Of a stretch of DNA of 52,738 nt, positions 21,295 through 50,604 are shown piece by piece. Position 1 is the stretch's first letter. The number at the start of each line of letters is the position of its first letter. The stretch covers positions 1 to 52,738 of the IMG/VR virus record IMGVR_UViG_3300031772_000048; one strand, 5' to 3'. This DNA comes from a virus. The notes under the pieces were generated by a model. The model was not told the DNA's origin. It searched no databases and saw only the letters and a list, made by a program, of their open reading frames with translations. Made by a program: the position numbers and the translations under genes.

Positions 21295-22068
21295 ATGAAA
21301 CTCCGACAACTGCTTCTAGAAATGAAGAAAGTACAAGAAGAAATAGGCGCCTCGCAGCCCTATATTTGTGGAGGCACGCCTAGAGACAAGTACATGGGCA
21401 AATTAGAAAATATAGCTGATTTAGATATTACTACCGGTGATAAAACAGTAGATTATCTTTCGCAAGAATTCTATTTGGAATTTCGCAAGAAATATAATGT
21501 CACCAGAAAAACTATGGAAGATGGACACAGCTCTATCTTTGTTGGTACTTTAAAAGTAGATTTTTCTTCTAATTTTATGGTTAACAATATTGATCGCATT
21601 CTGCAACAAATGGGCATGGCAAATCCTAATAACATGCAAAGAGAAATGTTCAGTAGAGATTTTACCTGCAACTCTCTATTACTAACTGTAGACCTTAAAA
21701 AGATATTAGATCCAACCAAACATGGATTTCAAGATATTAAAGATCGCAAAATTAAAACTTGTCTATCTCCTGAAATTACATTAACATCAAATAGAAATAG
21801 AGTTGTTAGGGCCATTTATTTAGCTTGCAAATTAGATTTTGATGTAGACCATGCAATTATTGATTATGTAAGTAAGAATCCTCAAACTGTTAAAATTTCA
21901 ACAGAAAAATCTATGACAGAAAAGCTAAATGACGCTTTCACTAGAGATGCCGATAGAGCGGCCAGCCTTGTCACTAGGATGAATTTATGGAATTATATTC
22001 CGGTTACTGAAAAAGTGTATCCATATTATATGCGACATACTAAGGGGAAAGCAAATGTCATTAAATAA
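21295..22068 (+). CDS. Nucleotidyltransferase of the tRNA CCA-adding / poly(A) polymerase superfamily
   Basis: 257 residues. The N-terminal half carries the class II head-domain signature: CGGTPRDKYMG (Gly26, Gly27, Arg30, Asp31) followed by DLDITTGD with catalytic Asp42 and Asp44. The SRDFTCNSLL segment corresponds to RRDFTxNA, and NRNRVVRAIYLACKLDFDVD to the conserved RxxRAxRFAAxLxF helix. The C-terminal tRNA-binding domains are largely missing (about 260 residues against 400 or more for a full enzyme). Phages may use such enzymes to repair tRNA 3' ends or tail RNA, but the substrate cannot be deduced. It sits among structural genes, which is unusual. ATG 21295 is used; ATG 21291 is in another frame. 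Confidence 0.7.
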   Translation: MKLRQLLLEMKKVQEEIGASQPYICGGTPRDKYMGKLENIADLDITTGDKTVDYLSQEFYLEFRKKYNVTRKTMEDGHSSIFVGTLKVDFSSNFMVNNIDRILQQMGMANPNNMQREMFSRDFTCNSLLLTVDLKKILDPTKHGFQDIKDRKIKTCLSPEITLTSNRNRVVRAIYLACKLDFDVDHAIIDYVSKNPQTVKISTEKSMTEKLNDAFTRDADRAASLVTRMNLWNYIPVTEKVYPYYMRHTKGKANVIK

Positions 22069-23158
22069 AAAAGGATATTTCCAAGGTGGAGGCGGCGTCA
22101 ATGAACCAACACCCGGTGAAAAGAAATACAAATCTGACCCGGCCTTGGTTGTTCAGCCTCGTTTCAAAGAACCATTTTATCGCAACTACGATTTGTATAC
22201 AATTCCGGGCATGGAAGACATCGGCCCCGGCACGGGATACCACGGCCTACAAGGTTATAATTCAGTCTCGGAATTTCTAGAAGCGCGCAGAGAGAGACTG
22301 AAGCCTCGCTACGTGGCCGACGATTCATGGCAGCTCGATAGCGGTAAGCGTACCAAGGAAAATCCTGGGATTAAAGCACGAGCAGCTATTTTTGAAAGAA
22401 TAATCAAGACGGCCAGAATGCCTGGTATGGGTTTGTATCACTCTTTGCAAAGAAAATTTGGCCCCATAAATAGATGCGGCTTTTGTGGAAAATCGAAAAT
22501 TGATGTTACTTTTGATTGTGAACACTGCGGTAAAGGCGGCCCCGTCGTTAGAAAAAAAGCTGGCCCAAACTACGATTTGGGTAAAGGGCTATACCAAGAG
22601 ATGAGTGATGGCAAAGTTAATAGTGTAGAAGAATTTAGGGAAGAAGGCAACCATGGCCCTAGCGCCTTAATGAATGTTAAAAAGAAAGACGTTAATCATA
22701 TTGATTTCCCAATTGATGATGAAATTAATCATGATAGTATGATCTATCCTATAGAAGATGAATATGAAATAAGAAGAGAAAAAGGAGATAGATATCAGTT
22801 TCCGTCAGATGGCTCTTCTTTAGACCCGGAAGATTTGAATATTTCAATGACTAGCCCACAAATTGCTGGAGAGCACTCAAATTTACCAGAGCCAGATTTT
22901 GCAGGGCGTTCAGATGAAGCTCTTAATTTTGGAAGAGATTATGACGACGAGCCAGGTCCGGGTCGCCAGACTGCCGATGAAGTTCTCCAAAATCTTTTTA
23001 ATAAGTACTTATCCCCAAATGAGAGTGGACTATTTGGGCTTCCAGATGGCGTAGACCCAGAAGGCCATGACGCAGATCAAACTGAACAGGTTGAGCAGCC
23101 ATTTACTGGTAAATCCGACATAGGTACGGATATGTATGATGATAAATGGAATATCTAA
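22055..23158 (+). CDS. Unknown zinc-finger protein with an N-terminal YFQGGGGVNEPTPG box
   Basis: 367 residues, overlapping the nucleotidyltransferase gene by 14 bases with a GGGG-type ribosome binding site (AAGGGGA). It begins MSLNKKGYFQGGGGVNEPTPG, a motif found twice more inside the protease/scaffold ORF. A zinc ribbon follows (RCGFCGKSK, then DCEHCGKGG, about residues 140-162). The C-terminal 200 residues are acidic, Pro/Asp-rich and apparently disordered. The shared N-terminal box suggests that it meets the same partner as the protease/scaffold protein. No enzymatic function can be proposed. Confidence 0.5.
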   Translation: MSLNKKGYFQGGGGVNEPTPGEKKYKSDPALVVQPRFKEPFYRNYDLYTIPGMEDIGPGTGYHGLQGYNSVSEFLEARRERLKPRYVADDSWQLDSGKRTKENPGIKARAAIFERIIKTARMPGMGLYHSLQRKFGPINRCGFCGKSKIDVTFDCEHCGKGGPVVRKKAGPNYDLGKGLYQEMSDGKVNSVEEFREEGNHGPSALMNVKKKDVNHIDFPIDDEINHDSMIYPIEDEYEIRREKGDRYQFPSDGSSLDPEDLNISMTSPQIAGEHSNLPEPDFAGRSDEALNFGRDYDDEPGPGRQTADEVLQNLFNKYLSPNESGLFGLPDGVDPEGHDADQTEQVEQPFTGKSDIGTDMYDDKWNI

Positions 23159-24807: not shown

Positions 24808-24818
24808 CTCCTTTGCAC

Positions 24819-25370
24819 TTACCCAGCTTGTTTTTCAAGTTCTGGAGGATATTTGAGTGCAAATATTTTGCTGTATTTACAATTGTAACATAGCAACCGT
24901 TGTTTGTCATCTAAAGTTAGAACTATAATACGTTCTTCTTGACATTCTTTACAACAACCACCATGGGTTTTAACCATTTCTGTTTTGTATTTTAACATGT
25001 ACTTACTTTTATATAGTTTATTTCTGTTACAGTTATGACAAACAATTTGGTGCCCAGTCTTTTGTATAATAGTATTGTAAAGATAATTGATATCGCCATT
25101 AATGGTTAATTTGGAGTAATCATCTTCTCCACAAATAATACAAGCATTACCATAAGCCAAGATAACCGCACTTCGTCTCATACGATAGCGGTTATTTTGT
25201 TTTTTAGCGTATTCTGAATCATTCTGATGATGCTTCTTGTCATTTAATTTTCGGCATGGTTTGCAGATATAATAACCTTTATTTTGGTCGTAATTGGCCC
25301 AATTTTTAATGGTTAATGAAATGCCACATTTAGTGCATGCCTTTTTTCTGCGTTTTTTCGTGGAAACCAT
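24819..25370 (-). CDS. Degenerate HNH homing endonuclease, minus strand
   Basis: 183 residues and the only minus-strand gene in the window. It is rich in CxxC pairs (CTKCG, CKPC, CIICGE, CHNCN, CKEC, CYNC). The central pattern YGNACIICGEDDYSKLTING, then hydrophobic residues and GHQIVCHNCNRNK, follows the phage-type HNH layout (C..C.......L.IDH......F.ILC.NCN..K), but the DH of the first catalytic motif reads NGD, so the first histidine is absent and activity is doubtful. Such genes spread by homing into conserved genes; the terminase next door is a common neighbour. It is inserted between the 24172 gene and the large terminase, and the terminase start codon follows only 26 bases later. Confidence 0.65.
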   Translation of the reverse strand: MVSTKKRRKKACTKCGISLTIKNWANYDQNKGYYICKPCRKLNDKKHHQNDSEYAKKQNNRYRMRRSAVILAYGNACIICGEDDYSKLTINGDINYLYNTIIQKTGHQIVCHNCNRNKLYKSKYMLKYKTEMVKTHGGCCKECQEERIIVLTLDDKQRLLCYNCKYSKIFALKYPPELEKQAG

Positions 25371-25396
25371 TATACTGAATATGCAATCATTTTAGT

Positions 25397-32122: not shown

Positions 32123-32862
32123 ACAACACTGATGCCCTACTACAACTTGCTAGCACTTATGAAGCTAAGTGCATCCAGGTGCTGGTAAAGATTGCGAAAG
32201 TTCGCAAACTTCCAGACGGTAGGTATCGTGTACTCTCTCAAAAGGGCAAAGACCTTGGGACTTACAAGTCTCAAAAGGCTGCCGAAAAAAGACTTCGACA
32301 AGTTGAGTTTTTCAAACATTTAGATAAATCCAAGGCCGATGATAGCGGTAAAGTTATTGATTTAACCGGAGCTGATGAATTTAGTTATTCAGCATTAATG
32401 CGCAAGCTTCGTCAAGAAGCTACACCAGAACAAGTTAAACAATTTTTGAAACTATTCAAATTGCAATTTGATAAAGCTGTTAAAGGCAAAATGAATAAGC
32501 CAGAAAGAATAGCTTTACAAAATTCTATTATTAGATTCCATAAGATACATCCAGTTAAACTTGATAAGAAAATGGTTAAATGTGCGGCCGTTGCCGAATT
32601 AGGTAATGCAGATCAAGTTGGACAATATTTATCTGGTATCGTTTCATTTATTCTAAATAGACTTCCTCCAGAGAAGCGCTCGCATGCAACTCAAATTCTT
32701 AAACAGAAATTTGCCGTTATGAGTGAGAATGAAATTGCCGGAAAACACATGCCAAACGCTGCTGTTTATGGTCAAGCGATTACATTCGTTAAGCACGTTT
32801 TGTTTAATCAAGATGCTAATTATATTAGAAATGTTCTAAATAGCTTATCGAGAAGTCTATGA
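32119..32862 (+). CDS. Helical protein with a small N-terminal beta domain, unknown function
   Basis: 247 residues, coupled on both sides by ATGA overlaps. Residues 30-70 (KLPDGRYRVLSQKGKDLGTY, then a KSQKAAEKRLRQVEFFKHL helix) look like a small three-stranded sheet plus helix of the type found in AP2-like or Arm-type DNA-binding domains and in many phage proteins. The rest is helical with a basic patch. The function is unknown. The tight linkage with the phosphatase downstream suggests that the two act together. Confidence 0.45.
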   Translation: MNNTDALLQLASTYEAKCIQVLVKIAKVRKLPDGRYRVLSQKGKDLGTYKSQKAAEKRLRQVEFFKHLDKSKADDSGKVIDLTGADEFSYSALMRKLRQEATPEQVKQFLKLFKLQFDKAVKGKMNKPERIALQNSIIRFHKIHPVKLDKKMVKCAAVAELGNADQVGQYLSGIVSFILNRLPPEKRSHATQILKQKFAVMSENEIAGKHMPNAAVYGQAITFVKHVLFNQDANYIRNVLNSLSRSL

Positions 32863-33629
32863 TTAGAAAGTTTCGCCAAGTAATTCCTCAAGTATTATAT
32901 CGTGGTTCTGCACCTTCTCCTAAAGATGTTATGGAGCTTAAAGATAAATTGGGTATTAAAAAGATTGTTTCTTTGGATAAAGACACTGGCGATAGAATTG
33001 ATCGTTCTTGTAAAATGTTAGGAGTTGATCATGTTAAAATGTATATTGATCATACTCGTAAAAGTTTATATCATTTTTTATCACAAGATCTTAAAAAACT
33101 ATTTCTAGATGGTGGCCCGACTTTTATTCATTGTCATGAGGGCAAAGATCGTACTGGTTTAGCTATCGCTTTAGTCAAGTGTAAATTTCTGGGTATGGAT
33201 CCTGAAAAAGCTATACAAGAAGCCAAGTCATTCGGTTTTGGTATTGGTATTCCCCCACAGATGACTCATCTATATGAGAAACTTATTCGTTCTTGCAAAC
33301 CCGTTAAAGATACAAATAGTGCTGATATAGTTTCAAATGAAAGAGAGTATAAGGGTGACGGCCGAGATAGTTTTCTCGATGAAGGTCATCAAGGATCTTT
33401 TGCTCCGCACCTCGATCAAACTAAGCAAGACCCAATGGATTCATTATACCCCTCTACATTAGACCAATATCCTACACGTCAAAATTATCAAAGCCCACCA
33501 TTATTTCGGCATGATCCTAGCAACAGTGTTGCCATTCCCAATGTTGGCGAATATGACAATGACGCGGGACAACGTGGTTTTGGCCCGGTAGAACGTATGG
33601 ATGGATTTTTTTCAGAGGTAGGCCATTAA
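32859..33629 (+). CDS. Dual-specificity / tyrosine phosphatase-like protein with unusual C-terminal extension
   Basis: 256 residues. The signature HCHEGKDRTG (nucleophile Cys92, phosphate-binding Arg98) is the CX5R loop of cysteine-based protein phosphatases, preceded by the strand and helix typical of the dual-specificity family (QVLYRGSAPSPKDVMELKDK and IVSLDKDTGDR). Asp64, or one of the Asp residues near position 40, may be the general acid. After about residue 150 comes a disordered extension rich in Asp, Tyr, Pro and Asn. The substrate is unknown: phospho-proteins of the host, phosphoinositides or phosphorylated RNA ends are all conceivable for this fold. It is embedded among head genes and overlaps the upstream gene by four bases. 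Confidence 0.8.
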   Translation: MIRKFRQVIPQVLYRGSAPSPKDVMELKDKLGIKKIVSLDKDTGDRIDRSCKMLGVDHVKMYIDHTRKSLYHFLSQDLKKLFLDGGPTFIHCHEGKDRTGLAIALVKCKFLGMDPEKAIQEAKSFGFGIGIPPQMTHLYEKLIRSCKPVKDTNSADIVSNEREYKGDGRDSFLDEGHQGSFAPHLDQTKQDPMDSLYPSTLDQYPTRQNYQSPPLFRHDPSNSVAIPNVGEYDNDAGQRGFGPVERMDGFFSEVGH

Positions 33630-34546: not shown

Positions 34547-37500
34547 ATGCCCATTATTAAATTAGGTGAAGCACATGAAATTAAACTTGAGAACATGGAA
34601 TCATGTCTTCCCGAGGTTAGTGCTGAGGTCTTAGATAACTTTAGGAAATTTGCGAATAATCTGAAAAAGGTTGCCCCTAAAGCAGAAGACTTCCTATATT
34701 TTTCCGCCGTAATGATGCATGCTGCTGAAGCTGCCGCTTTGAATGAAGACGGCACTCCCAAACTAACAATTAAAGGCGAAGCAGTTGAAGTAGGCTGGGA
34801 TACATCGGGTAATACATGGAAGTGGACTTCTAATGACCCAAGTATAAAACCATATAAAAATTCTAATGGTGACATTTTTCCAGAAGCCGAATTAACCAAA
34901 GCTTACAAAAAATGGAAACATAAGCCTCTATGCGTAGATCATAAATCGAGTTCGGTTGATCATGTAAGAGGCTTTATTGTTGATACCTATTATGATCGTA
35001 GTCTCAAGCGAGTAATTGCTTTATGCGCCTTAGATAAGGCCGGATTTCCACAATTAGCTAGACAAATTTCTACTGGCGTTTCTAACTGCGTATCTATGGG
35101 TACTGCTGTTGGAAGAGCCATTTGCTATGATTGCGGTAGAGTCGCTCGTGCAGAGCCAGACTTCTGTAATCATATGAAAAACAAGACGTGCTACGGTGAA
35201 ATCAACGTAGATCTCAATCCAATTGAGCTATCTATTGTTGTGAATGGTGCTGATCCTAGAGCCAATATCAAACACATCATTGCCGCAGCCAACACTATGA
35301 ACACTTATCTCGAAAATAGAGCTAAGGAGTTAGAAAAAGTAGCATCTACATATTCTGCTACTATTATCAGAAGTAATGAATCTAATGGTTCAGAAGTTTC
35401 TGATATGAATACTATCTCGGTTCGTGGCGAATCTTTAGAGTCTTTTAAACAAGACTTCGAAAGAGGACTTGAGGAATTAGAGTCTCTTAATTCAAAAATT
35501 TCTGAAAAAGATACTAATTCTTCTGCATCTAATCAGTCGTCGGGTTCGATCGCTATGGATGAAGGTGCCCCGACGGATTCTGGATTGGCTCTCCAAACTC
35601 CGCCAATAAGATTGGCATCTGCTGATGTAGAAGCAGAATCACTAGCCGAACTTCAACAAGTTACAGCCGCTATTGAGGCCACGCTAAATCAAATGAAGAC
35701 GAGCTTGGATAAGTTAGCTAAAACTTCTACTATGAAAAAACAAGAGGAAAACATGTCTGGATCAAAAGAAATCAATAAGCAAGCTTATTTCCAGGGCGGC
35801 GGTGGCGTTAATGAGCCAACTCCAGGTCAAGTCAAATATCCAAAAGACGGGTTAAATGAGCAACTTCGTGAACACGAAGATAAGCACATGACCGGTCAAC
35901 CACCTTTCCCTGAGGTTGGTCCTGTGGATGGAATGCACCCTTCACCAGCTTCGGCTGATCCTTCTGGCGAATTAGAGCGTAAGAAAATGCTCGCTCGCGC
36001 TGAAGCAGAAGATAGGGCATTAAAACGTAATGCAATTGTTAACCTGGCAAAAGACGCTCTCCGAAACAGAGAAGCTTATTTTCAAGGTGCTGGTGGTGTA
36101 AACGAGCCAACTCCAGGTAAAGTTAAGTATCCAAAGGATAAACTTAACGAAGAACTTCGTGATTATGAAGATAAGCACATGGTTGGTCAACCGCCTTTCC
36201 CAGGTGTTGGTCCAGTTGATGGAATGCATCCTTCTCCAAGTTCTGCTGATACAAAAGATGAACTAAAGCGTAAGCAAATGTTAGCTAGAGCAGCCCTCCG
36301 TGCAAGATTTGTTAAGGCCGCTAATCGTAATGGTACTCAGAATAAAGCTAAGAGTGCTTGGGAAGTTTTCCTTGGTGATAGACTATTGTTAACAGCCTCT
36401 GTTGAAGATTTGTCTGGCGGAAATACTGACGTACTATATGATTCAATTGCTACTAAGGCTTTCGGCGCCAGCTTGATCGAAAAGGTCAAAGTTAATGGTG
36501 CGGATGCAGTTAGTAGACTAATTAAGAGAGCCGCTGAACCAGGCGCTCCTCCAGCCCCTCCAGGCGATCCAGCCGCAGCACCACCAGGTGGTGAGATGGG
36601 TGCCGCACCAGAAGCTGGTCCTCCAGCCGAAGATGAAGGTAAATCTGGCGATCCTAAGCAACATGCTCTACAATTATCTGAAAAGGTAATGAATCTCAGC
36701 TCCGATCTTCACGAAGCAGTTCGTGCTTTGGCCGGCGAACAAGCTGAAATGGGTGGCGCAGAAGCCGCTCCAGCAGGTGGTGTTGGTGGTCCAGCAGGTG
36801 GCCCAATGGCCGCTGATGATCAAGATGCTCGCAAGAAGAAGATGGATTCTTCCAAAGAAGCTTCTGATAGTTTTAGCACTTCCACTCTCAATACTTTGAG
36901 AAGAGAATTAAATGGCGCATTAACTCATGCAATGAAAGAAGCTGTTGCTGACCTTAATGAACACCAGCAAGAACTAGACATGATTGTTGGTATGTACGAC
37001 AAGGGAGCTGTCAACGACACTAATCAAGATTTTGTTGGCACTATTGTAGAAGACGCATTAAATGAAGCTAAGACCTCAGTGGCCGATGGTTTCAAGTTGA
37101 TGACCGCCTTTGTTAAGTATGCTCGTGGTACCAAAGCCATTGTCAAACGTGCTGAGATTGAATCAGAACTTGAAGCACTAGCCGAAGGAGATACGATGAG
37201 CGATAAGAACGATAGTCACTCCGCAGACGGCGGTGACTTAATGGGACTAATTAACGACACCAATGCCGATTTGGATGCGGTTCATGATATGATGAACCAT
37301 GAAGGAATGGACGATTTAGGTGACCTAGGTATTGATGGTCTTCTTGAAGAAGGCCATGAAGACCACGAAGATCACGAAGATCCTCTTCTAGAAGGTTTGG
37401 CAGATGATAATGATGTCGAAATTAAACCAGAAGAATTGAAGATGCTAACTCAAGCTTCGTTTGATAACAGAGCTGGCCGCGCATCACTCAGAGCCAAATT

Positions 37501-38224
37501 AGCAGCCGATGCTCTTGGTAAAGAAGAAGACGGAGAACTACAGGATATGTCCAAGCAAAAGTTTAGCGATATGCTAGATGCTTCTCAGAAGCACACTGAT
37601 GGACAAACTGATTTGGATGTCAAGCCATCCGATAGTCTTGGATTGGTTGAGACCATTCAAGAAACAAACAAGGCCATGATGGATGTCGCCAAAGCTCCAC
37701 CAAAGGTTCGCAAAGAAGCAGAAGCTATTCAGAGACTCGTTTCTGAAGGTAAATTGGATCCAAGAGATGTTGACGCTCTAGTGGCAGAAGGTCTTGACAA
37801 GGATGCAGTTGCTTACTGGAAGAAGTACTTCGGTGAGGTTGATGGTGGTGGTGAATTTGCTAGTGAATTAGTAAAGGAACACGTCAAGTCGGCCATGGAA
37901 GAGGAACTTAATAAATTCCGCGTCAAGTTAGCTCGTGCTTATGAACTAACCTATGACATGGTTGATCGTGGTCTCTGTCGTCATGATAGGGCAACTATCT
38001 CTGATCAAGTTGATCAAGTTATGAAGTTTAATGATGATGCCTTTGAGTCTCTCAAGAAAGTAGTTGCACGTCATGAACCAGGCGCCCTTCGCAAAGAAGC
38101 GGGCCGTATTCCACAAGTTGGACTCAGAGGTGATGGTGAATTCTCTCCAGTAACCGCCGCAGTCGAAGAAGATTCATATGCCCAATTGTCTTCTATGTTC
38201 GGAACTAAAAAGGGTGTGTTCTAA
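34547..38224 (+). CDS. Prohead-protease-like domain fused to scaffold-like regions (composite ORF)
   Basis: 1225 residues. The N-terminal 260 residues resemble prohead proteases: KPLCVDHKSSSVDHVRGFIV with probable catalytic His132, STGVSNCVSMGTA with probable Ser183, and a nearby zinc-like CYDCG...CNH site. The later part is acidic, Ala/Glu-rich and helical like scaffolding protein, with two tandem repeats of about 97 residues (from 413 and 510) each beginning AYFQG, a Pro/Gly-rich linker, a DDQDARKK motif, and a C-terminal module shared with the 4947 gene product. Two in-frame ATGs with good ribosome binding sites, at 35753 (residue 403) and 37196 (residue 884), could yield separate products of 823 and 342 residues, like lambda C/Nu3. 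Protease identity is a pattern call. Confidence 0.65.
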   Translation: MPIIKLGEAHEIKLENMESCLPEVSAEVLDNFRKFANNLKKVAPKAEDFLYFSAVMMHAAEAAALNEDGTPKLTIKGEAVEVGWDTSGNTWKWTSNDPSIKPYKNSNGDIFPEAELTKAYKKWKHKPLCVDHKSSSVDHVRGFIVDTYYDRSLKRVIALCALDKAGFPQLARQISTGVSNCVSMGTAVGRAICYDCGRVARAEPDFCNHMKNKTCYGEINVDLNPIELSIVVNGADPRANIKHIIAAANTMNTYLENRAKELEKVASTYSATIIRSNESNGSEVSDMNTISVRGESLESFKQDFERGLEELESLNSKISEKDTNSSASNQSSGSIAMDEGAPTDSGLALQTPPIRLASADVEAESLAELQQVTAAIEATLNQMKTSLDKLAKTSTMKKQEENMSGSKEINKQAYFQGGGGVNEPTPGQVKYPKDGLNEQLREHEDKHMTGQPPFPEVGPVDGMHPSPASADPSGELERKKMLARAEAEDRALKRNAIVNLAKDALRNREAYFQGAGGVNEPTPGKVKYPKDKLNEELRDYEDKHMVGQPPFPGVGPVDGMHPSPSSADTKDELKRKQMLARAALRARFVKAANRNGTQNKAKSAWEVFLGDRLLLTASVEDLSGGNTDVLYDSIATKAFGASLIEKVKVNGADAVSRLIKRAAEPGAPPAPPGDPAAAPPGGEMGAAPEAGPPAEDEGKSGDPKQHALQLSEKVMNLSSDLHEAVRALAGEQAEMGGAEAAPAGGVGGPAGGPMAADDQDARKKKMDSSKEASDSFSTSTLNTLRRELNGALTHAMKEAVADLNEHQQELDMIVGMYDKGAVNDTNQDFVGTIVEDALNEAKTSVADGFKLMTAFVKYARGTKAIVKRAEIESELEALAEGDTMSDKNDSHSADGGDLMGLINDTNADLDAVHDMMNHEGMDDLGDLGIDGLLEEGHEDHEDHEDPLLEGLADDNDVEIKPEELKMLTQASFDNRAGRASLRAKLAADALGKEEDGELQDMSKQKFSDMLDASQKHTDGQTDLDVKPSDSLGLVETIQETNKAMMDVAKAPPKVRKEAEAIQRLVSEGKLDPRDVDALVAEGLDKDAVAYWKKYFGEVDGGGEFASELVKEHVKSAMEEELNKFRVKLARAYELTYDMVDRGLCRHDRATISDQVDQVMKFNDDAFESLKKVVARHEPGALRKEAGRIPQVGLRGDGEFSPVTAAVEEDSYAQLSSMFGTKKGVF
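35743..35755 (+). promoter_or_regulatory. Internal ribosome binding site and start codon 1
   Basis: AGAGGA at 35743-35748 lies four bases before the in-frame ATG at 35753. Translation from here gives MSGSKEINKQAYFQGGGG, which parallels the true N-terminus of the 22055 gene product (MSLNKKGYFQGGGG). That agreement makes use of this start likely. It falls between the protease domain and the first repeat. Confidence 0.6.
35783..36310 (+). repeat. Two tandem protein repeats of about 97 residues
   Basis: Copies start at 35783 and 36074, 291 bases apart. Each contains AYFQG[GA]GGVNEPTPG, KYPKD, NE.LR.(H/Y)EDKHM.GQPPFP, VGPVDGMHPSP and ends in a basic helix (ELERKKMLARA or ELKRKQMLARA). The nucleotide sequences differ at many third codon positions, so the duplication is old and the protein sequence is under selection. 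Confidence 0.9.
37185..37198 (+). promoter_or_regulatory. Internal ribosome binding site and start codon 2
   Basis: AAGGAG at 37185-37190 is five bases before the in-frame ATG at 37196, a near-ideal signal. The product would begin MSDKNDSHSADGGDL and run 342 residues to the common stop, containing the acidic scaffold-like region and the shared C-terminal module. Confidence 0.6.
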
Positions 38225-38249: not shown

Positions 38250-39020
38250 ATGAAAAACCAAAGCGTATCAGATTTTGTAGCTGCAACTATGGATGCAGTT
38301 CTAAACAGCAAAGAGCACAAGTCTTTGTTTGCAACACAATATAAGAAGGCGGGCGAATCTATGTGTGCTAAACACAGTAAGATGGATAGCTGCGCTGCCG
38401 ATGACGAGAATGATGCTCGCAAAAAGAGGGATACCGATGAGGATTCTTCTAGTGCTTGGGACGATAATGATGCTCGCAAAAAGAGAGATACCGATGAGGA
38501 CTCTAGCGATGCTGATGATAATGATGCTCGCAAAAAGAGAGATACTGATGAAGACTCTAGCGATGCAGACGACGATGATGACAACGATGCTGAGGATCCT
38601 AAGAAGCCAGTCAAATTTGATCCTAACTTTGGTGGCCGTGATGTTGGCGGGCCTTCCGTCAGTAAAGCTGATGATATGGAAGCCTCTGCCGCATTCGATG
38701 TAGCTATTGATAGCTTATTGACCGCATCTGCCGCTTTAGACTCAGTTGGTCTAGGTCGTGGTTCTGCTCTTACTTTGAAGATCGCTTCTTTGGTTGTTGA
38801 AGCCAAGAAGAAGGACTCAAAAGATAAGAAGGATGAGAAAAAGAAGAAGGACGATAAGAAAAAGAAGGACAAAGATACTCAGTCTGCTAAAGACAAGAAA
38901 TCTAATCCTTTTGCCAAGAAGAAGGATGATAAGAAAGATGATAAAAAGAAACCATCATCTTCGAAACCATCATCTTCTAAGCCATCTAGCTCTTCATCTT
39001 CCTCTCCAAAGAAAAAGTAA
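38250..39020 (+). CDS. Repeat-rich charged protein of unknown function
   Basis: 256 residues. A short helical N-terminus with three cysteines (SMCAKHSKMDSCAAD) is followed by three tandem copies of a charged repeat, DNDARKKRDTDEDSS, then a helical middle (DSLLTASAALDSVGLGRGSA, LTLKIASLVVEAKKK) and a long Lys/Asp tail ending in Ser/Pro/Lys repeats (KPSSSKPSSSKPSSSS). The charge alternates from acidic to basic, which would suit an internal head protein binding DNA or scaffold. A DDQDARKK motif in the preceding ORF matches the repeat core. GAGGA at 38240-38244 is the ribosome binding site. There are no enzymatic motifs. Confidence 0.5.
   Translation: MKNQSVSDFVAATMDAVLNSKEHKSLFATQYKKAGESMCAKHSKMDSCAADDENDARKKRDTDEDSSSAWDDNDARKKRDTDEDSSDADDNDARKKRDTDEDSSDADDDDDNDAEDPKKPVKFDPNFGGRDVGGPSVSKADDMEASAAFDVAIDSLLTASAALDSVGLGRGSALTLKIASLVVEAKKKDSKDKKDEKKKKDDKKKKDKDTQSAKDKKSNPFAKKKDDKKDDKKKPSSSKPSSSKPSSSSSSSPKKK
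38412..38576 (+). repeat. Three tandem copies of a charged peptide repeat
   Basis: Copies begin at 38412, 38469 and 38523, spaced 57 and 54 bases, and encode DARKKRDTDEDSS separated by Asp/Ala/Asn-rich spacers. The units are nearly identical at DNA level (GATGCTCGCAAAAAGAG is invariant), which indicates recent expansion and a possible site of slippage or copy-number change. Confidence 0.9.
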
Positions 39021-41107: not shown

Positions 41108-41121
41108 AAATTCCGTTTTGC

Positions 41122-41538
41122 TTGATATATCTTTCGCCTGAAGAAAGGGCGGTAATTAGTAAGAAACAGTCTGAATCCTTCACTAAATATATTAAAGAAA
41201 ATGGACATATAGCATTAGGAACTAAACGAAGCCCAGAAATTTTGCAAAAGATGAGTCAGTTACGTTTGGTAAATCCAGTTGATTATACTCTTGAAAAACG
41301 ACAACATATGTCAGAGGCCCACATTGGCATTAAAGATTCTGAGGAGACTAAGCAAAACAAATCGATAAGCGCCAAAGAAGCCTGGGAGAAACGAATTGAT
41401 TATTCTCGTAAATGTTCGGCTCCTGGATGCGAAGTATCTGGCAAAGCGAAATACAAAATCATTAACGGGAGCCGATACTGTAATAAGCACGGTCTGCGAC
41501 TATTACGCTATAATAGATTAGATTCTTTAAGCGACTAA
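41122..41538 (+). pseudogene. NUMOD-type remnant of a homing endonuclease
   Basis: 138 residues can be read from a TTG at 41122 with no ribosome binding site. The frame is open further upstream into the preceding gene, and no ATG starts it properly. It contains short NUMOD3-like units (KRSPEILQKMSQ; HMSEAHIGIKDSEETKQNKS; ISAKEAWEKR), DNA-binding modules of GIY-YIG and HNH homing endonucleases, and a C-terminal zinc-finger-like CSAPGC then YCNKHGLRLLRY. No catalytic domain is present. It is therefore best read as a truncated mobile endonuclease left between two structural genes, though a stand-alone DNA-binding protein with an unusual start cannot be ruled out. Confidence 0.5.
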
Positions 41539-41580
41539 TATCGCAGTATATTATAGACAATCTAATCTATCGAGGCTAAT

Positions 41581-50055: not shown

Positions 50056-50604
50056 ATGGATACTAAAAAACTTCGTAAAGCTTACATGCAGATTATGCCT
50101 CATTTGAACAAGGCGTTAAAACACGTGCAATCCAAATTATCGGATGTGCCGCCATCAGATTTTGTGTTAGAAACAAATATGAAGCCTTATTCTAGCGTCA
50201 AACGCAAAATGTTGAATAATCATATTCACGATCCTATACAGCTACCCGATTTAGTAAGGGGTAGGCTCTTTTTTTCTAAAGACTATAATCCAAAAGAAGT
50301 TGTAAGTTTACTTAAAAAGATATTCGGGAAGAATATTACTAAAGCAAACAAAAAAGACACCAATGATTGTGGATTAAAATATCCAGGTGTTACTGATGTT
50401 AATTTAGATTGTGATGGTATCCAATTTGAATTACAGCTAATGCCTTTAGAATTCCAGCCACACCAAGAATTATCTCATCAAATTCATGATAAACTGCGTA
50501 GTGATAATGGGAAATTAACCGATAAGCAAAAAGAATTTTTGCGACATATGCACAATAAATTCTTCAAAGTTTTGGATGCTAAATCTAAGGCTTCCGACGA
50601 TTAA
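50056..50604 (+). CDS. RelA/SpoT-like nucleotidyltransferase-fold protein
   Basis: 182 residues. The core has the order found in small alarmone synthetases and related proteins: MKPYSSVKRKM, then DPIQLPDLVRGRLFF with Asp65, an alpha/beta segment, and GIQFELQLMPLEFQPHQELS with Glu125-x-Gln127, followed by a helix with SHQIHDKLR. Known members make (p)ppGpp or, in toxic small synthetases, pyrophosphorylate tRNA or make ppApp. Key loops (the substrate G-loop Tyr and basic ATP-site residues) cannot be verified by eye, so activity is open. It has no ribosome binding site (ATG follows CATACTAAT) and stands just after the capsid terminator. The stop overlaps a small ORF by TAATG. Confidence 0.55.
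   Translation: MDTKKLRKAYMQIMPHLNKALKHVQSKLSDVPPSDFVLETNMKPYSSVKRKMLNNHIHDPIQLPDLVRGRLFFSKDYNPKEVVSLLKKIFGKNITKANKKDTNDCGLKYPGVTDVNLDCDGIQFELQLMPLEFQPHQELSHQIHDKLRSDNGKLTDKQKEFLRHMHNKFFKVLDAKSKASDD

Follow-up and report, generated by a model that had tools for sequence, protein, structure and literature searches.

The present study describes a gene in which a protease and a scaffold are probably encoded in one and the same reading frame. It lies at 34547-38224 on the plus strand of a viral DNA of 52,738 nucleotides (IMG/VR virus record IMGVR_UViG_3300031772_000048, positions 1 to 52,738), and this whole stretch is called the window. Our data indicate, with a probability of a little under nine in ten, that this open reading frame (ORF) of a large tailed phage is a nested protease/scaffold gene with inner in-frame starts. 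The frame is open over 1225 codons, and its predicted longest product is a protease-linker-scaffold fusion of 1225 amino acids (132.6 kDa). The first internal start, ATG 35753, is residue 403 and follows the Shine-Dalgarno (SD) sequence AGAGGA (35743..35748) with a spacer of 4 nucleotides. The scaffold protein predicted from it (35753..38224) would have 823 amino acids (88.6 kDa) and opens with MSGSKEINKQAYFQGG. The second, ATG 37196, is residue 884, has the SD sequence AAGGAG (37185..37190) at a spacing of 5 nucleotides, and would give a C-terminal product of 342 amino acids (37196..38224, 37.7 kDa) made up of an acidic linker and a helical domain. Both starts are in frame. A preliminary description of this DNA had pointed out the two ATGs, their ribosome binding sites and an N-terminus beginning with MS at each, and all were found as described. 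Its proposal of a nested protease/scaffold gene, made by analogy with lambda C/Nu3, is now backed by selection on the start regions and by outgroups in which the scaffold is a gene apart and opens with the same N-terminal motif.

Within a single sequence the two starts differ in strength, and the main evidence comes from the relatives. The ORF has 63 internal ATG/GTG/TTG codons, and of these ATG 37196 has the strongest anti-SD pairing (-8.8). At 35753 the pairing is -6.0 kcal/mol, and this codon is one of several in the ORF at or below about -6. Among the 384 internal in-frame ATGs of the window 3.6% reach -6 and 1% reach -8. Because of this ranking and these rates, 37196 is unusual in the window alone and 35753 is suggestive only.

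Scans of IMG/VR for homologous loci gave 22, then about 80 and later many more. The loci lie on contigs of up to 481 kb and the relatives are therefore jumbo phages. About 110 non-redundant relatives carry an intact fused ORF, down to 36% identity. A codon alignment was made of 72 non-redundant members. Of the 71 sequences scored, 70 keep the ATG at residue 403; the exceptions are displaced, by one codon in L100 and by the alignment in L093. Upstream of it GAGGA is present at a spacing of 4 or 7 nucleotides in 69 of the 72, and AAGG in one more. Loss of the ribosome binding site from relatives with an intact ORF, which the preliminary description had named as evidence to the contrary, was thus not seen at 35753. 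In distant members the peptide at the SD varies (QEENM, EETQM, SEETNM, SRDM, SRETTM) and so does the spacing, while the purine-rich SD and the ATG stay. An ATG with an SD of -5 or lower lies no more than 12 codons from the start of the scaffold module in all 110 non-redundant fused ORFs; for random positions the figure is 9.3%. The 72 sequences have 26 conserved methionine columns, and a strong mean SD is found only at residues 1 (-9.4), 884 (-8.1) and 403 (-6.0); residue 1001 takes a middle place (-5.0), and all of the remaining 22 fall short of -3.4. When synonymous codons upstream of the starts were shuffled, the SD gave z = -8.1 at residue 403 and -10.0 at residue 884, while four control methionines gave -2.3 to +5.5. 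Silent sites were also analysed in 66 sequences under 84% identity, with correction for codon usage and with permuted minima as the null. Residues 394-403 are strongly constrained (observed/expected 0.33, below the 0.41 that marks the 1% quantile of permuted minima), and the GAA codon of E401, which lies in the first SD, shows 0 synonymous differences against 499 expected. At both sites the SD is stronger than coding alone would demand, and selection acts on both start regions.

The N-terminal domain is assigned as a prohead (head maturation) protease. Its core, residues 32-247 (34640..35287), is supported by PHROG, hhalign, AlphaFold2/Foldseek and invariant columns. The domain matches PHROG 18299, a head maturation protease (expectation value, E, 9e-12), and gp19 of Bacillus phage G (JN638751; hhalign E 1.7e-26). 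The AlphaFold2 model has a predicted local distance difference test score of about 90 in the core, and its top PDB chains are the T4 gp21 protease and the herpesvirus assemblins. Foldseek gave probabilities of 0.92-0.99 across the top chains of these two kinds (5jbl, T4 gp21, 0.96; 4v07, assemblin pUL26N, 0.99), with E values of only 0.006-0.012 and a low global template modelling score. The modelled fold thus resembles that of T4 gp21 and herpesvirus assemblin. H132 and S183 (in VSMG) are invariant in 24 sequences including phage G and are candidate catalytic residues. The first internal start had been placed just after the protease domain; it is indeed downstream of the fold, but about 150 residues of variable linker lie in between. 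The protease ORFs of two relatives (L063:6001-10743 and L078:6001-10755) have an intein-like insertion of about 370 amino acids with a Hint/intein splicing domain and a LAGLIDADG endonuclease. It ends in VVSN-C or VVHN-C and splits the conserved protease motif YKN-SNGDIF as YKN-[CF...N]-CNGDIF.

Between the protease and the C-terminal domain there are two copies of a YFQG(G/A)GGVNEPTPG module. Copy 1, YFQGGGGVNEPTPG (35786..36019), lies at the N-terminus of the internal product and copy 2, YFQGAGGVNEPTPG (36077..36310), lies within the scaffold. The YFQGGGGVNEPTPG module is also found, as the same tag, at the N-terminus of a separate gene outside the nested one (22055..23158, plus strand). The likeness of N-termini claimed earlier is real, as MSGSKEINKQAYFQGGGGVNEPTPG matches MSLNKKGYFQGGGGVNEPTPG of this gene, and a comparable second module-bearing gene exists in five of eight long relatives. 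As the module recurs on proteins of the head module, it may serve as a tag for docking or sorting in the procapsid. The C-terminal helical domain (37484..38221) is common to phage G gp21 and to stand-alone scaffold genes. It is all-helical in the AlphaFold2 model and aligns with phage G gp21 in hhalign (probability 76%, E 2.4e-5), and its hidden Markov model matches to the split scaffold genes reach E 8e-20. BLASTP of the internal product against phage G gp20/gp21 as single sequences gave no significant match, and profile comparison is needed to see the relationship. Just downstream, at 38250-39020, lies a small gene (acidic/lysine-rich) in which DDNDARKKRDTDEDSS is repeated three times in tandem. 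A DDQDARKKKMDSS stretch in the scaffold at about 36815 is related to these repeats, and phage G gp21 opens with EEKFDARKKLARAE.

In outgroups the protease and the scaffold are separate genes. Phage G gp19, used as a query, brought up relatives intermediate between phage G and the fused group. The protease of phage G, L230 and L231 has a gene of its own (about 300 amino acids), and the C-terminal domain is found in a later, separately encoded protein of 475-514 amino acids. L232, L235 and L236 have a protease ORF, then an intergenic gap and then a separate scaffold gene of 626-650 amino acids, with a strong SD of -8.7, -12.1 and -10.3, respectively. The scaffold N-termini of these three are MAKINKAWFQGQ (MAKINKAWFQG), MAKNFKKAWFQGA (MAKNFKKAWFQG) and MSKQSRKAYW...KKAWFQGQ. 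The N-terminal motif MAK..KAWFQG is common to these three stand-alone scaffolds and the internal product. Since the three scaffold genes begin with the same motif, the internal start occupies the position of a true gene start. It had been suggested that related phages be compared to see whether the three parts are separate genes there; this holds for protease and scaffold, which are apart in distant outgroups, but the last 342 residues were never found separate. In a tree of the protease domain most fused forms fall in one clade, and the labels need 2-3 changes with an uncertain root. Fusion therefore looks likelier than fission by eye only, and the tree still leaves room for fission. The jumbo-phage lineage carrying the nested gene is, from its sequences, distantly related to phage G.

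The gene may work as follows. From the above we infer where ribosomes initiate, the relative amounts of the products, their processing and fate, and that the C-terminal part acts as a scaffold. Ribosomes starting at 34547 would make the protease-scaffold fusion of 1225 amino acids. From 35753, in that same frame, they would start independently and make the scaffold alone (823 amino acids), presumably in excess, and initiation at 37196 would probably give a third, short C-terminal form of 342 amino acids. The common C-terminal scaffold domain would carry a minority of protease molecules into the growing procapsid core. The protease would then cut itself free and digest the scaffold so that DNA can enter. 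What argues for this scheme, at the level of sequence, is that starts and SDs are conserved beyond what coding demands, that the N-terminal domain is assigned as a protease, that outgroups have the scaffold as a gene by itself, and that the ORF lies between the genes for portal and major capsid protein.

Several points weigh against a nested protease/scaffold gene. In the window by itself the SD of 35753 is only moderate (-6.0), and of the gene starts in the window just 35% are at -6 or lower. The SDs were scored with a generic 16S tail, which may differ from that of the host. The most distant relatives have the 37196 ATG missing or shifted. The C-terminal part is assigned a scaffold role by position, helicity and synteny with phage G; its fold search found no PDB match and no PHROG or Pfam family matches it. 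Phage G gp21 is without the YFQG motif and aligns with the C-terminal domain only. It should also be noted that the relatives share descent, so that the counts are of non-independent events; the synonymous-shuffle and random-position controls cover coding need and chance, and shared descent is outside their reach.

Over the whole ORF, silent sites are most strongly constrained 155-260 nucleotides upstream of 35753. Block 1 (35492..35536, residues 316-330, GAAAAAGATACTAAT...GCATCTAATCA) has an observed/expected ratio of 0.16, where the 1% quantile of the permuted minimum is 0.41. Block 2 (35573..35599, residues 343-351, GATTCTGGATTGGCTC) has a ratio of 0.49 and is borderline at 5%. Block 1 could possibly regulate the internal start downstream of it, for instance as an internal promoter or a processing site. 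The scaffold would then come from a separate internal transcript, as with UL26.5 of herpesviruses, with 35492-35599 serving as promoter or mRNA-processing site. This alternative is possible but doubtful, and it is compatible with, rather than opposed to, the nested gene favoured here. The position of the constraint speaks for it, and the sequence GATACT resembles a sigma-70 -10 hexamer. On the other hand a search by eye gave no conserved -35-like partner and there is no conserved RNA fold: RNAalifold energies at 35450-35770 and at 37196 were not below those of column-shuffled controls. Nor is the motif clearly a recurrent promoter in other contigs, where the inspected matches lie inside ORFs. 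As a recurrent promoter GATACTAAT was rejected; the window has one exact 9-mer. Across eight long contigs its pattern is commoner in forward than in control orientation; six other matches inspected are inside ORFs, five of the six in frame as KDTN, and KDTN elsewhere uses other codons. Two coding explanations of the constraint were also discarded. A +1 overlapping frame at 35480-35600 is open in the window and broken in L002, L007, L010 and L018, and the GAAAAAG run required for a -1 frameshift is not conserved (L008, L021, L055). The peptide KDTN(S/D) itself is present in three head-region genes of the window, at 33306-33350, 35507-35530 and 50353-50370, that is in a tyrosine-phosphatase-like gene (32859-33629), in the protease/scaffold linker and in 50056-50604.

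Support for the second start is good among relatives close to the window, and its conservation is partial in deeper ones. Of 59 aligned relatives, 51 have ATG 37196, with a mean SD of -8.1. The GGA codon of G881 in its SD shows 90 synonymous differences against 608 expected and the neighbouring E880 is unconstrained; this is the pattern expected if GGAG matters rather than GAA/GAG. In relatives with an intact ORF the ribosome binding site at 37196 is lost only in the more distant ones, some of which have a replacement nearby, and in several distant relatives without the ATG another strong start lies no more than 20 codons away. In 74% of 101 relatives the acidic linker that precedes the C-terminal domain contains an ATG with an SD of -6 or lower, compared with 24% for control zones of the same width; for an SD of -8 or lower the figures are 47% and 6%. 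Because a strong start recurs in the acidic linker above the control-zone rate, the 342-amino-acid product is probable, though less certain than the one of 823 amino acids. Alternatively, only 35753 would be a real start and 37196 a by-product of the conserved EGD peptide of the acidic linker, or a lineage-specific extra. Eight of the 59 covered relatives do lack an ATG at this column, whose exact place is unreliable in the distant ones, and no stand-alone gene corresponding to the 342-amino-acid product was seen. Against this speak the constraint on GGA next to free GAA/GAG codons, the SD z of -10.0 and the recurrence of a strong start in the linker. We consider this alternative unlikely.

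The sites could also be conserved for the sake of the protein, for example because the prohead protease cuts there (QEEN/MSGS and EGDT/MS), with the scaffold made solely by proteolysis. Both lie at domain boundaries in exposed linkers, and in herpesvirus pUL26 the release site is also near the UL26.5 start (PMC4498786). Nevertheless, it is silent positions of the SDs that are constrained (E401, 0 of 499 expected; G881, 90 of 608), while adjacent residues vary. Distant relatives change the peptide, with only SD and ATG persisting, and outgroups have a true gene start. Proteolysis as the sole source is therefore improbable, although cleavage close to the sites may occur in addition to initiation.

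Apart from one contig, the ORF is single and unbroken in all full-length relatives. This holds for every one of the close set (1121-1614 amino acids, to 36% identity; the upper lengths are due to the intein in L063 and L078) and for the later sets, bar the frameshifted L214. The two-ORF appearance of L214 near residue 920-985 is an indel without a new start and was taken as an assembly error or frameshift. Any fusion is therefore old, and the recent three-gene fusion suggested in the preliminary description was not upheld. That such a fusion left its old starts as functionless relics is hardly credible and largely refuted by the conservation data: the starts do coincide with domain boundaries and the outgroup protease and scaffold are separate genes, but the frame is unbroken to 36% identity, only two rather than three separate genes are seen, and relic SDs would have decayed, yet they are kept in 110 of 110 non-redundant relatives.

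The nested gene can be compared with several known systems. In lambda C/Nu3 one gene serves for both protease and scaffold, an internal in-frame start giving the latter (Shaw and Murialdo 1980, as cited in PMC8508860). The window's ORF is alike in being one gene with an in-frame inner scaffold start and a shared C-terminus. The lambda protease gpC is of the S49 type (SppA/ClpP-like), whereas that of the window is gp21/assemblin-like by fold; the window scaffold is unrelated by the searches made, is over twice as large and has a probable second internal start. Mu I/Z and PaMx73 gene 27 have the established nested protease/scaffold logic that the proposed scheme follows (PMC4378225). They differ in having a single internal start. 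Their protease belongs to a different family from that of the window. In herpesvirus UL26/UL26.5 the scaffold is an in-frame 3'-coterminal nested gene, and cytomegalovirus has four nested products (PMC4498786). An N-terminal assemblin-type protease and a nested in-frame scaffold are the points of likeness. The herpesvirus products come from separate 3'-coterminal transcripts, whereas translational initiation sites are conserved in the window lineage, and the fold match is remote (probability 0.99, E 0.012) with no sequence match. Phage G has a protease homologue in gp19, a protein similar to the C-terminal scaffold domain in gp21 and the same gene neighbourhood, but gp19 and gp21 are separate genes with gp20 between them. 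The Cluster C mycobacteriophages (Tonenili gp249), Stormageddon gp13 and Rhodococcus phage E3 gp77 have a homologous protease in an ORF of about 900-1240 amino acids, two genes before the major capsid protein; their C-terminal part is not detectably similar to the window scaffold. These actinobacteriophage relatives have internal starts (Tonenili codon 464, SD -12.0) whose position is inconsistent between them.

Nesting of this kind is in principle known. The novelty lies in finding it, and so deeply conserved, in a jumbo-phage clade, together with an assemblin-type protease, a probable third product and split-gene outgroups. The open-access literature searched held no description of a nested gene in phage G or in jumbo phages, subscription journals being outside its scope. 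The arrangement is hereby extended to a widespread clade of very large phages, and a protease of T4-gp21/assemblin type is linked, in a phage, with a scaffold that is nested as it is in herpesviruses. Assembly factors of jumbo phages are poorly known, and annotation pipelines list one protein where two or three are probably made, which affects the identification of scaffolds in these phages. The comparative series, with separate genes in phage G and L232-L236 and fused and nested ones in the others, may show how genes fuse and yet keep an inner start. In its fullest form this would be a three-tier nested gene (protease-scaffold, scaffold, short C-terminal scaffold) with an assemblin-type protease and an upstream nucleotide element driving or tuning scaffold synthesis, a phage counterpart of UL26/UL26.5 retained across a large, almost uncultured clade. 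We put this forward tentatively, as rather less than an even bet.

The head module around the ORF comprises a terminase (25397), a portal (27364) and a major capsid protein (48968). The ORF sits between the portal and the major capsid protein, nine to ten genes before the latter. Long gaps occur between head genes at 24808-25396 and 41108-41580. The first holds a minus-strand ORF with cysteine pairs (24819-25370) and the second a TTG-start ORF (41122-41538) without a Pfam match; by eye both look like free-standing insertions of homing-endonuclease type. Inside or near the head module there are also the tyrosine-phosphatase-like gene mentioned above and a gene with a polyA-polymerase/CCA-enzyme head domain (21295-22068).

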